Assembly (NCBI RefSeq): GCF_006546735.2
Contig: NZ_VICD02000065.1
Location: 1-32,251 of the forward strand
DNA length: 32,251 bases
Origin: Marilutibacter maris
Lineage (GTDB): Bacteria > Pseudomonadota > Gammaproteobacteria > Xanthomonadales > Xanthomonadaceae
Direction: 5' to 3'
Position numbers and translations under genes: made by a program. Positions 2,198-5,664 of the stretch are shown piece after piece. Positions within the stretch are counted from its first letter, which is position 1; each line of letters begins with the position of its first letter. Under the pieces are notes generated by a model that saw only the letters and a list, made by a program, of their open reading frames with translations, was not told where the DNA came from and made no database searches.

Positions 2198-3525
2198 GCG
2201 CGCAAGCGATCGCAAGCCTCGGATATGCCAGCACCCGCGGCCAGGCGCCGGTCGCCGGCATCGACGCCGCATTGGTCGCCGGGCTCGCGCCCGACGGCGG
2301 ACTGTATGTCCCGACCGTCATTCCCGAGGTCGCGCCGGACGCGCCCGGCGCATCGCTGGCCGACACCGCGACCGCGGTGCTGGCGCCGTACTTCGCCGAC
2401 TCGCGGCTGGAGGACGCGCTGCCCTCGCTCTGTGCGCAGGCGTTCTCGTTCGACGCGCCGCTGCGACCGCTCGCCGGCGCGGGCGATCACCTGCTGGAGT
2501 TGTTCCACGGGCCGACCGCCGCGTTCAAGGACTACGCCGCGCGCTTCCTGGCCGGCGCCCTGTCGCGCCTGCGCGAGGCCGGGGCACGGCAAGGCGACGC
2601 TCGCCCGGCCACGACGATCCTCGTCGCGACCTCGGGCGACACCGGCGCCGCGGTCGCCGCCGCGTTCCACCGCCGCGAGGGCTTCCGGGTCGCGATCCTC
2701 TACCCCGACGGCCGGGTCTCGCCGCGCCAGGCGCACGGGCTGGGATGCTGGGGCGACAACGTGCGCGCGTTCCGGGTCGACGGCAGCTTCGACGACTGCC
2801 AGCGGCTGGCCAAGCAGGCCCTGGCCGACCAGGCGCTGCGCGCGCGCTGTCCACTGGGTTCGGCCAACAGCATCAGCCTCGGCCGATTGCTGCCCCAGGC
2901 GGCCTACTACGCGCATGCCGCGCTCGCCCACCATGCCCGGCATGGGCGGGCGCTGAACTTCATCGTCCCCACCGGCAACCTCGGCAACGCCTGCGCGGCG
3001 GTGCTGGCGCGGCGGATGGGGCTGCCGGTCGGCGAGGTCCGCCTGGCCACCAACGCCAACGACACCCTGCCGCGCTACTTCGCCGGCGCCGACTATGCGG
3101 CGCAGCCGACCCGGGCCACGCTGGCCAACGCGATGGATGTCGGCGCACCGAGCAACTTCGAACGCCTGCGCCACTGGCACGCCGACGACGCATCGTTGCG
3201 CGCGGCGATGACCGCGACCGCGGTCGACGACGCCACGATCCGGGCGACGATCGCGTCCGCGCCCGCGCGCCACGGCGTGGTGCCCTGCCCGCATACCGCC
3301 ACCGGTCTGCATCTGCTCGAGCAGATCCGGGCCGCCGGCGACGATCGCCCCTGGGCGGTGGTGGCGACCGCGCACCCGGCCAAGTTCGAAACCATCGTCG
3401 AACCGCTGGTCGGACACGAAGTCGAGCCGCCGCCGGCGCTGGCCGAATCGCTGCCCCGTCGCGCACACGCCACACCGATGGCGGCGACGTATTCGACCTT
3501 GGTCGAAGCGCTGGAGGCCGGGTGA
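2194..3525 (+). CDS. thrC: Threonine synthase
   Basis: This PLP enzyme converts O-phosphohomoserine to threonine plus phosphate, the last step of the thr operon. At 443 residues it has full family length. Residues 105-113 (HGPTAAFKD) hold the PLP lysine, K112. TSGDTGAA forms the phosphate-binding loop, and the NSIS, PTGNLGN and TAHPAKFE blocks follow in the expected order. The start is set by the ATGA overlap with thrB and an AGGAG about 8 nt upstream. The threonine made here is the substrate of the ilvA-type deaminase encoded 6 kb downstream, so the two operons are metabolically consecutive. A G+C-rich hairpin follows the stop codon. Confidence 0.97.
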
Positions 3526-3536
3526 CGCGGCAAAGC

Positions 3537-3561
3537 GGGTGCCGGGTCACGACCCGGGCCC
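3537..3561 (+). terminator. Hairpin after thrC, probable end of the thr operon
   Basis: CCGGGT (3542-3547) pairs with ACCCGG (3552-3557) around a 4-nt loop. GGG (3537-3539) and CCC (3559-3561) extend the stem past a small internal mismatch. Only GTTTC follows, so the U-tract is poor and termination may be partial. It lies 12 nt after the thrC stop and 16 nt before the ilv promoter, so it is well placed to separate the two operons. Confidence 0.5.
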
Positions 3562-3577
3562 GTTTCAACGGAAACTG

Positions 3578-3607
3578 TTGACACCGCCGTTCGAGCCGTG
3601 CTTATCT
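3578..3607 (+). promoter_or_regulatory. Promoter of the ilv-leu operon
   Basis: A perfect -35 hexamer TTGACA (3578-3583) is followed after 18 nt by TTATCT (3602-3607) as -10. CTTATC with a 17-nt spacer is an equally possible reading. Transcription would start around 3613-3616, at or just before the ATG of the leader peptide, leaving no room for a ribosome-binding site. It is one of the most consensus-like promoters in the window. Confidence 0.7.
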
Positions 3608-3615
3608 CCAAACCC

Positions 3616-3783
3616 ATGACGCAGCGCAGCAACCACCTGCAGACCGCCATCGCCCGGGCCCAGACCCCGGCCGACGCGCTGCGCGCCGCGCACCCGCTCC
3701 TGATCGCGACCGCATCCGCGGCGCTCATTCTCGTACTCGTACTTATTACCGGGCCAACAAGCGCGGGGTACGGGATTGCGTAG
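3616..3783 (+). CDS. ilv operon leader (attenuator) peptide
   Basis: This short frame of 55 residues ends in ALILVLVLITGPTSAGYGIA. Codons 3724-3747 read Leu-Ile-Leu-Val-Leu-Val-Leu-Ile without a break and are followed by Thr. The operon behind it makes exactly Leu, Ile and Val, so the run is the expected sensor for charged tRNA. The codons are CTC, ATT, CTC, GTA, CTC, GTA, CTT and ATT, whereas the surrounding genes use CTG, GTC/GTG and ATC almost exclusively. Slow codons of this kind would sharpen the response. The peptide is longer than enterobacterial IlvL (about 32 residues). A GTG at 3598 would add six residues but lies within the promoter, so ATG 3616 is preferred. The hydrophobic run could be misread as a membrane segment, but the attenuator argues against that. 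Confidence 0.82.
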   Translation: MTQRSNHLQTAIARAQTPADALRAAHPLLIATASAALILVLVLITGPTSAGYGIA

Positions 3784-3844
3784 GTAACACCAGGCAAACC
3801 CGAAAAGTACCAGGACCCCGCGCCAGAAATGGCGCGGGGTTTTT
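3730..3844 (+). promoter_or_regulatory. Transcription attenuator of the ilv-leu operon, mutually exclusive RNA structures
   Basis: Four segments can be identified. Segment 1 is CTCGTAC, present twice in overlap (3730-3736 and 3736-3742), inside the control codons. Segment 2 is GCGCGGGGTACGGG (3761-3774). Segment 3 is CCCCGCGCC (3816-3824). Segment 4 is GGCGCGGGG (3831-3839) followed by T5. Segment 1 pairs with GTACGGG of segment 2 (7 bp, one G-U). Segment 2 pairs with segment 3 over 8 bp (GCGCGGGG with CCCCGCGC). Segment 3 pairs with segment 4 over 9 bp to form the terminator. Segment 2 and segment 4 share the same eight bases, the hallmark of competing partners. A ribosome stalled on the Leu/Val/Ile codons covers segment 1, frees 2:3 and lets transcription continue. 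A ribosome reaching the stop codon (3781) covers segment 2 and allows 3:4. Confidence 0.85.
3816..3844 (+). terminator. Attenuator terminator hairpin (segments 3:4)
   Basis: CCCCGCGCC (3816-3824), a six-base loop AGAAAT, a perfectly complementary GGCGCGGGG (3831-3839), then TTTTT (3840-3844) and more T-rich sequence. It is a canonical intrinsic terminator lying between the leader peptide stop and ilvD, where it can only work as an attenuator. The ATG within its loop and arm (3829) is in frame with ilvD but is not a credible start. Confidence 0.92.
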
Positions 3845-3897
3845 CGTTTCCAGGCCCAAGAAAACCTCTTCAGACCACCGAGCAAGGACTTCCCACC

Positions 3898-5664
3898 GTG
3901 AGAAGCAACGCGATCAAGCAAGGCCCCGCACACGCACCCGCGCGGGCCATGCTGCGCGCAACCGGCCGCGACGACGACGCCATCGCGCGCCCGTTCGTCG
4001 GCGTGATCCACACCTGGACCGACGTGTCCCCGTGCAACCTGACCCTGCGCGAGCTGGCCGAGGACGTCCGCGCCGGCGTCGAGGACAACGGCGGCACCGC
4101 GGTCGAGTTCAACACCATCGCGATCACCGACGGCATCGCGATGGGCACCGACGGCATGCGCGCGTCGCTGGCCTCGCGCGAGACCATCGCCGACTCGATC
4201 GAGCTGGCGGTCACCGGCCACAGCCTGGACGCGATGGTGCTGCTGGTCGGCTGCGACAAGACCATCCCGGCGGCGGCGATGGCCGCCGCGCGGCTGGACG
4301 TCCCGACCGTGATCCTCTACGGCGGCACGATCATGCCCGGCCATTGTCCCTCCAGGGACGACTCGGCCGAGCCCGGCGACGAGCGGCCGCTGACCGTGCA
4401 GGACGTGTTCGAGGCGGTCGGCGCGCATGCCGCCGGACGCATCGACGACGCCGAACTGCACCGGGTCGAATCGCACGCTTGCCCCGGTGCCGGCGCCTGC
4501 GGCGGCCAGTTCACCGCCAACACGATGGCGATGGTGCTGAGCTTCCTCGGCCTGTCGCCGCTGCAGCTCAACGACATTCCGGCGGTCCACGCCGACAAAC
4601 CGGCCGCCGCCCGCCGTTGCGGCGCCCTGGTCATGCAGCAGTTGCGCAACGGCGGTCCGACACCGCGCACCCTCCTCTCCCCCGCCGCGCTGCGCAACGC
4701 GGCACGCGCGGTGTCGGCCACCGCCGGTTCCACCAACGCGGCGCTGCACCTGCTGGCGATCGCGCACGAGGCCGGCGTCGCCTTCGACCTGGAGGAGTTC
4801 GAGGCGGCCGCGGCGGCGACCCCGGTCATCGCCGACCTCAAGCCCGGTGGACGCTACACCGCGGCGGAGATGTTCGAGCAGGGCGGCACCGCCCTGGTCG
4901 CCCGCGAACTGCGCAGCGCCGGGCTGATCGAGGACATCCCCACGGTCACCGGCCGCTCGCTGTTCGCCGAACTCGACGCGGTGCCCGCGCCGGTCACGCA
5001 GGATGTCGTGCGCCCGGTCGCCGACCCGATCAAGCCGCGCGGCGGCTATTCGATCCTGTACGGCGACCTCGCACCCGAAGGCTGCATCGTCAAGCTGGCC
5101 GGTCACGGCCGCGACCGCTTCGAGGGCCCGGCACGGGTGTTCGATTCCGAGGAGGCCGCGTTCGCCGCGGTGCAGGCGCGCCGGATCGAGGCCGGCGACG
5201 TCGTGGTGATCCGCTTCGAGGGCCCCACCGGCGGCCCCGGCATGCGCGAGATGCTGGCGGTCACCGCGGCCCTGGTCGGCCAGGGCCTGGGCAACGACGT
5301 CGCCCTGATCACCGACGGCCGCTTCAGCGGCGCGACCCACGGTTTCATGGTCGGCCACATCGCCCCGGAGGCCGCGCACGGCGGCCCGATCGCGCGCCTG
5401 CGCGACGGCGACCGCGTGCGCATCGACGTCGGCACGCGCCGCATCGATGTCGATGCCGAGCTCGCCGCGCGCGCGCCGGCGTCGTTCCAGCCGCGCGTCC
5501 GTACCGGTGCGCTGGCCAAGTACGCGCGCATCGTCAGTTCCGCCTCGCGCGGTGCGGTCACCGCGCCGGGTCCGCTCGACGACCGTCGCGCGATCGCCTC
5601 GACCCTGATCGAAACCACAACGGAATCGGCCGCCACCCGAGCGGCCGAAACCGCCCCCGCCTGA
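3898..5664 (+). CDS. ilvD: Dihydroxy-acid dehydratase
   Basis: This Fe-S dehydratase converts the dihydroxy acids made by IlvC to 2-ketoisovalerate and 2-keto-3-methylvalerate. I chose the GTG at 3898 (588 residues) because it has AAGGA 9 nt upstream. An in-frame ATG at 3829 lies inside the attenuator hairpin. Candidate cluster cysteines are C46 (VSPCNLTL), C119 (GCDKTIP) and C195/C201 ([11 protein letters not shown]), followed by [14 protein letters not shown] and ITDGRFSG occur near the C-terminus. The [10 protein letters not shown] form is that of the plant-like IlvD group, for which [2Fe-2S] clusters have been described. The usual CDKTxPGxxMA segment reads [11 protein letters not shown] here. 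The IlvD/Edd family also contains sugar-acid dehydratases, but leading an ilv operon behind a Leu/Ile/Val attenuator makes IlvD the clear call. Confidence 0.93.

Follow-up and report, generated by a model that had tools for sequence, protein, structure and literature searches.

A predicted leaderless or nearly leaderless attenuator leader before the ilvD operon of Marilutibacter maris, with counterparts at thr, ilv and leu genes in its order

The stretch of DNA analysed here, hereafter the window, is 32,251 nucleotides of the forward strand of Marilutibacter maris contig NZ_VICD02000065.1. It contains an ilv operon whose first structural gene is ilvD, identified by its match to NF002068 (716 bits, cut-off 644); the match to TIGR00110, at 601 bits, is just below the cut-off of 618. 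On the 3′ side of ilvD the gene order is ilvC, ilvG, a gene for an ilvE-like aminotransferase, a gene for an ilvA-like dehydratase, and leuA. Upstream are thrB and thrC. The end of thrC, at position 3525, is 52 bases before the −35 hexamer of a putative promoter, and a terminator scan of that gap reported none, though the same scan also missed the attenuator terminator described below. Upstream of ilvD lies a short ORF with a run of Leu, Ile, and Val codons (LILVLVLIT), and this run is conserved in relatives. The features of the locus are collected in Table 1.

Table 1. Features of the window between thrC and ilvD. Counts refer to the analysed set of 80 loci (see text).
Feature	Position	Strand	Remarks
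−35 hexamer TTGACA	3578–3583	+	TTGACA in 79 of 80 loci; the remaining locus has TTGACT
Extended −10 region TGn-TTATCT	3599–3607	+	18-base spacer; TTATCT at 3602–3607
Leader start codon ATG	3616–3618	+	A is the predicted transcription start; predicted 5′ UTR of 0–3 nt
Start element ATGACGCAGCGCAGC	3616–3630	+	Consensus over 80 loci: ATGnnGCAnCGCAnC
Leader peptide ORF, 55 aa	3616–3783	+	Stop codon TAG at 3781–3783; peptide MTQRSNHLQTAIARAQTPADALRAAHPLLIATASAALILVLVLITGPTSAGYGIA
Control codons CTC ATT CTC GTA CTC GTA CTT ATT ACC (LILVLVLIT)	3724–3750	+	
Antiterminator strand GCGCGGGGT	3761–3769	+	Within leader codons S-A-G-Y; partner at 3815–3823
Intrinsic terminator	3814–3844	+	GC-rich hairpin with arms 3814–3825 and 3830–3841, loop GAAA, T run 3840–3844
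ilvD, first structural gene	3898–5664	+	GTG start; AAGGA at 3884–3888

An earlier note on this DNA proposed that the TTGACA-N18-TTATCT sequence is a promoter that starts transcription at, or within a few bases of, the leader ATG, so that the leader peptide would be read from a leaderless mRNA. The hexamers, the spacer, and the ATG are exactly where that note placed them, with the sequences it gave. Taken by itself, the window says little about promoter function. TTATCT agrees with TATAAT at two of the six positions, and a sigma-70 promoter scan of positions 3200–4300 returned 0 sites. The pattern TTGACA-N28..32-ATG occurs 19 times in the genome of the window, versus 16 occurrences for the reversed control, and the corresponding counts in three relatives are 23 versus 19, 23 versus 36, and 16 versus 27. 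That is, the TTGACA-to-ATG geometry by itself is at chance level in a single genome. It follows that the original argument was thinly based, though comparison among relatives supports it, as follows. The −10 hexamer is poor in the family of the window, with T or C in place of the usual A, and the promoter may therefore depend on some additional factor.

A single-sequence query with the leader peptide gave matches in 31 of 198 genomes of the family. A leader profile has matches in 90 of 398 genomes of the order, representing 28 of the 98 genera sampled, and at least one of these matches (L101) was judged false; the profile has no match in the other 308 order genomes. Outside the order, the start pattern matched in 4 of 274 genomes of the class, one being that of the window itself. 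The other three matches belong to ORFs of 8, 28, and at least 200 aa, and do not read as leaders. An Rfam scan of positions 3400–4100 gave 20.5 bits for RF00512 (Leu_leader; cut-off 50) and 15.1 bits for RF00506 (Thr_leader; cut-off 55), and no family in Rfam, NCBIfam, or Pfam matched the leader above its cut-off. Among the literature matches listed, none describes attenuator leaders of the leaderless type in relatives of Xanthomonas. Some of the attenuators considered here may reportedly have been predicted already by Vitreschak et al. in 2004.

Loci for comparison were read from part of the 90 matching order genomes. The false match L101 was dropped, and L032–L039 are genomes already in the set. 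Of 83 loci read, counting that of the window, the control motif was recognised automatically in 80, and these 80 (the window and 79 relatives) are the analysed set; 12 of them belong to two other families of the order. The motif search skipped L129, L133, and L134, which are outside the 80 for that reason and were inspected separately. L010, L012, and L029 each have two copies of the control motif, and their distances and folds are based on the upstream one.

The attenuator switch is considered first. A hairpin with a T-rich tail precedes the first structural gene in all 80 loci. In the window, the antiterminator strand pairs with ACCCCGCGC, in the 5′ arm of the terminator, in folds that represent a stalled ribosome. 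When folding is begun 15 nt past the control motif, to mimic the stalled ribosome, an antiterminator of at least 5 bp is found in 79 of the 80 loci; the sole exception is L099, in which the terminator arm that was found is too short. When the ribosome is placed at the stop codon, the antiterminator appears in 0 of 80 folds, as must be so since the strand is masked in that fold. The duplex fits its own partner better than those of other loci, with a mean of −20.4 kcal/mol versus −18.5 kcal/mol for swapped partners. None of 2000 permutations was as good, but relatedness is uncontrolled in this comparison. Because the loci share ancestry, the 80 do not count as independent events, and the permutation results here and below should not be read as probabilities. 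The duplex strands also carry matched changes across loci, for example, GCGCGGG/CCCGCGC and GTGCGGG/CCCGCAC. Several of the control codons are rare in seven genes of the window: GTA makes up 2.9% of Val codons, CTT 2.1% of Leu codons, and ATT 3.3% of Ile codons. CTC (15%) and ACC (80%) are not rare.

Folding of the leader with no ribosome predicts the antiterminator in 40 of the 80 loci, the window among them. In 33 loci the antiterminator strand pairs mainly elsewhere in the leader, and in 2 it pairs mainly with the first 24 nt. For the window, these folds suggest that an untranslated leader would be read through. The first 24 nt were considered as a protector that would pair with the antiterminator strand. 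The energies favour it to a degree, with a mean of −14.3 kcal/mol for own pairs versus −13.2 kcal/mol for permuted ones, and none of 2000 permutations reached the mean of the own pairs. Stronger pairing is given by later segments of the leader (−16.9 and −19.3), and the first 24 nt are the main partner in only 2 of 80 folds; the protector pairing was not adopted.

The reading of the element as a ribosome-mediated transcription attenuator, as the earlier note assumed, is well supported by sequence comparison and by folding models, and a response to charged tRNA is predicted. It might be argued instead that the transcript is leaderless but that control is exerted through translation, through Rho, or through a peptide acting in trans. 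Trans-acting leader RNAs and peptides are indeed described for S. meliloti trpL (PMC7298713). Against such a scheme stand the T-tailed terminator at every one of the 80 loci and the alternative antiterminator whose strands change together, and we consider it very unlikely.

Intrinsic attenuation being the preferred reading, we turn to the start of the leader. Counted from the first T of TTGACN, an in-frame ATG lies 36–38 nt downstream in all 80 loci (36 nt in 33 loci, 37 in 38, and 38 in 9; sd 0.66 nt). In 52 loci this is the single in-frame ATG within the stretch searched, and in the 28 loci with several in-frame ATGs the script chose one 30–45 nt after TTGAC. The distance is unchanged whether the next gene is an ilvD match (43 loci), an ilvC match (28 loci), or a gene that reads as leuA (9 loci). 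Other distances in the same leaders vary. The interval from the ATG to the control codons ranges from 22 to 50 codons, with 24 distinct values and an sd of 23 nt, and the non-coding spacer between the stop codon and the terminator ranges from 27 to 51 nt (sd 4.9 nt). Since the TTGACN-to-ATG distance is nearly constant while the others vary, the start codon tracks the promoter. The bases at −3 to −6 vary among loci, and the region is not simply frozen. The three loci inspected outside the set, L129, L133, and L134, have TTGAC-to-ATG distances of 38, 37, and 36 nt among them. Two loci found later by pattern, L207 (ilv) and L205 (thr), have a distance of 35 nt, which counts against a fixed range of 36–38 nt. 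Six later ilv-type loci (L194 and L206–L210; 35–37 nt) were kept out of the 80 because the search pattern itself required a spacing of 34–38, and the thr leaders found by pattern (35–38 nt) are likewise not counted as evidence about distance. As a separate observation, the middle of the leader ORF, positions 3637–3720 in the window, is highly variable in length and sequence among relatives.

The −1/+1 dinucleotide at the leader ATG is CA in 76 loci, TA in 3, and AA in 1, so that a pyrimidine-A step, as at an initiator, is present in 79 of 80. This bears on the proposal that the attenuator is leadered, the main transcript coming from an upstream promoter or from thrC read-through and the leader being translated without a Shine–Dalgarno sequence, for example, by 70S scanning or by reinitiation after thrC. 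The short gap behind thrC in the window and the empty terminator scan, with the reservation about that scan noted above, would suit such a transcript. However, only 26 of the 80 loci show thrC in the 700 nt before the leader (some of the 80 hold only about 400–600 nt of upstream sequence), yet the TTGACN-to-ATG distance remains 36–38 nt. A leadered transcript would also leave unexplained why the start codon tracks the −35 hexamer and why pyrimidine-A is near-universal. We regard this alternative as unlikely.

The −10 region is less uniform. The extended −10 TG is present in 62 of 80 loci. TAnnnT can be read as the −10 in 13 loci when spacers of 16–19 are tried. The two other families, with 12 loci in the set, supply 10 of these 13; in those 10, it lies 17–18 bases after the −35 hexamer and ends 7–8 bases before the ATG. 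Some relatives (L008, L014, and L028) have an inverted repeat, ACAyGGCC-N5-GGCCrTGT, in the promoter spacer, with matched changes between the arms; the repeat is weak in the window (3581–3600). The dyad was examined as a candidate operator and set aside, as it is striking in few loci and over the 80 loci no centre rises above z 1.6. These observations enter into a further alternative, namely, that TTGACA-N18-TTATCT resembles a promoter by accident or is an inactive one, and that it is conserved because a regulator binds over the start region. The weak −10 in the family of the window and the operator-like dyad at loci such as L014 and L028 speak for such a proposal. The TAnnnT sequence at the −10 position in the two other families speaks against it, and covariation of the dyad over the 80 loci is not clearly beyond what composition gives. 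We judge this explanation to be very unlikely.

With an active promoter as the preferred reading, the initiation signals of the leader deserve attention. Anti-Shine–Dalgarno pairing of −4 kcal/mol or stronger is found at 9 of 80 leader starts versus 28 of 28 script-located ilvD starts; the other 71 leader starts are without a strong Shine–Dalgarno match, and the AUG of the window leader has an energy of +0.6 kcal/mol. There is a conserved sequence at the start codon itself. The start consensus is complete in 52 of 80 loci, and ATGnnGCAnCGC, extending through CGC, is found in 71. Third codon positions are nearly fixed, with G at +6 in 77 loci, C at +12 in 78, and C at +15 in all 80; position +9 is freer, with G in 55. 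These third positions hold although the peptides vary (MTQR, MLQR, MPHR, and others). In codons 2–5 (3619–3630), the near-fixed third positions of codons 2, 4, and 5 suggest an element conserved partly at the nucleotide level. Leaderless translation is reportedly stimulated by CA repeats that follow the AUG (PMC9031893). The first 15 nt of the leader are predicted to be less paired than nt 31–45, the unpaired fractions being 0.61 versus 0.42.

The leaderless leader peptide of the earlier note is thus well supported, at the level of sequence comparison, by the promoter-to-ATG distance, the pyrimidine-A initiator, and the weak or absent Shine–Dalgarno sequence in most loci; a 5′ UTR of 0–3 nt is the best reading.

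The same geometry is found at operons other than ilv. In G065 (L141), thrA (905.6 bits to NF006959) is preceded by a leader, MTQRNNPLPT...ITTTTSITTTGTGTS, whose ATG is 37 nt after TTGACA. Fourteen thr regions were chosen by position; the pattern search had already turned up one of them, L253 (G105). A thrA start is present in 11, and in 11 of 11 a Thr-rich leader precedes it. The first suitable ATG in these leaders is 36 or 37 nt after TTGAC, some having further in-frame ATGs. The remaining regions could not show a leader because they have no thrA start: L243 and L244 lack a thrA match, and L251 begins inside thrA. Seven of the 11 leaders begin MTQRN or MTHRN, and the other four begin MHAAP, MPVTF, MHAAL, and MHAPS. 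Since these four peptide starts differ, conservation of the peptide cannot be what fixes the distance. Thr/Ile-rich thr leaders with the ilv-leader geometry include those of L141, L242, L245, L250, L252, and L254, among others. Leaders before a gene reading as leuA are those of L050, L053, L054, L094, L095, L099, L124, L125, and L131, the leuA assignments of L050 and L125 having been checked by profile. His leaders with the same start were also sought; 7 of 30 loci with a CAY5 match were inspected, and their open frames are long and were judged not to be leaders. For RF00514, 3 of 14 genomes gave matches with E values up to 1, and no match exceeded the cut-off.

We propose that the ilvD-ilvC-ilvG... 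operon is controlled by a ribosome-mediated attenuator with a 55-aa leader encoded at the 5′ end of a leaderless or nearly leaderless (0–3 nt) transcript. On the sequences compared, we consider this proposal very probable as a whole, and the attenuator itself is likelier than the leaderless reading. From geometry, conservation, and alternative pairings, which come from sequence comparison and folding, we infer the transcript start, the mode of initiation, and the regulation, as follows. RNA polymerase would initiate at, or just before, the A of the leader ATG, and a ribosome would load on the 5′-terminal AUG without a Shine–Dalgarno site and translate towards the LILVLVLIT run, with its partly rare codons. 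When charged Leu-, Ile-, or Val-tRNA is scarce, the ribosome would stall at the control codons, leaving the antiterminator strand free to pair with its partner in the terminator arm; the antiterminator would then block the terminator, and ilvDCG... would be transcribed. When charged tRNA is sufficient, the ribosome would reach the stop codon and cover the antiterminator strand, so that the terminator would form and transcription would end. Initiation may be by 70S ribosomes, and leader translation may be tightly coupled to promoter escape, as the earlier note suggested.

It is possible, though on balance doubtful, that one gammaproteobacterial order has a dedicated leaderless start cassette for thr, ilv, and leu attenuators, in which the first codons aid ribosome loading and the lack of a protector makes read-through the default. 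The cassette would consist of TTGACA, about 18 bp, a weak extended −10, a pyrimidine-A initiator, and, commonly, AUGnnGCAnCGC. Attenuation requires a ribosome close behind RNA polymerase from the start, and the usual site for ribosome loading is missing from a leader whose first codon is at or near the first base. If the cassette reading is true, attenuation would also report the capacity of the cell for leaderless initiation, and an untranslated leader without a protector hairpin, as is predicted for the window, would default to read-through. Leaders that begin at or near the first base would make leaderless initiation the gate for biosynthetic operons in many members of the order, given the genera with profile matches. 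Such leaders would offer a natural system in which termination could report leaderless translation, and the shared nucleotide motif after the AUG could help define what makes a good leaderless start.

Classical enterobacterial ilv, leu, and thr leaders are preceded by a 5′ UTR that carries a ribosome-binding site. In common with them, the window leader is predicted to use stalling at codons for the end-product amino acids to choose between antiterminator and terminator; unlike them, the window stretch scores below the Rfam cut-offs for RF00512 and RF00506.

Closer parallels are found among leaderless systems. In the ilvBNC attenuator of C. glutamicum, transcription is reported to begin one nucleotide away from the ATG of the leader, and loss of the start codon cut expression by 80% (PMC11857589); the title of Morbach et al. 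2000 states that there is no ribosome-binding site. As in the window, a branched-chain leader peptide precedes ilv genes, and the hairpins include a terminator. The C. glutamicum leader has 15 aa and belongs to an actinobacterium, whereas the window leader has 55 aa (41–63 among the leaders listed). The effect of start-codon loss also runs contrary to the folds of the window, which suggest read-through. In S. meliloti, the rnTrpL transcript begins with the trpL ATG (PMC7298713), so that an attenuator leader transcript starts together with its ORF, which is also the prediction for the window; that leader concerns tryptophan, has 14 aa, is alphaproteobacterial, and has an RNA and a peptide with functions in trans. 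Leaderless cysteine uORFs of mycobacteria (Canestrari et al., cited in PMC9031893) are described as acting by an attenuation mechanism that regulates translation of the downstream genes. They share with the window a leaderless short ORF with amino-acid-sensing codons that affect downstream genes, the amino acid being cysteine in their case.

Given these published examples, the novelty implied by the earlier note was overstated, and the window leader adds to an existing kind. What appears to be new is the spread of such leaders in one gammaproteobacterial order, the nucleotide start motif, and the geometry that thr, ilv, and leu operons have in common; the conserved motif and the single geometry at all three kinds of operon set these leaders apart from C. 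glutamicum ilvBNC.
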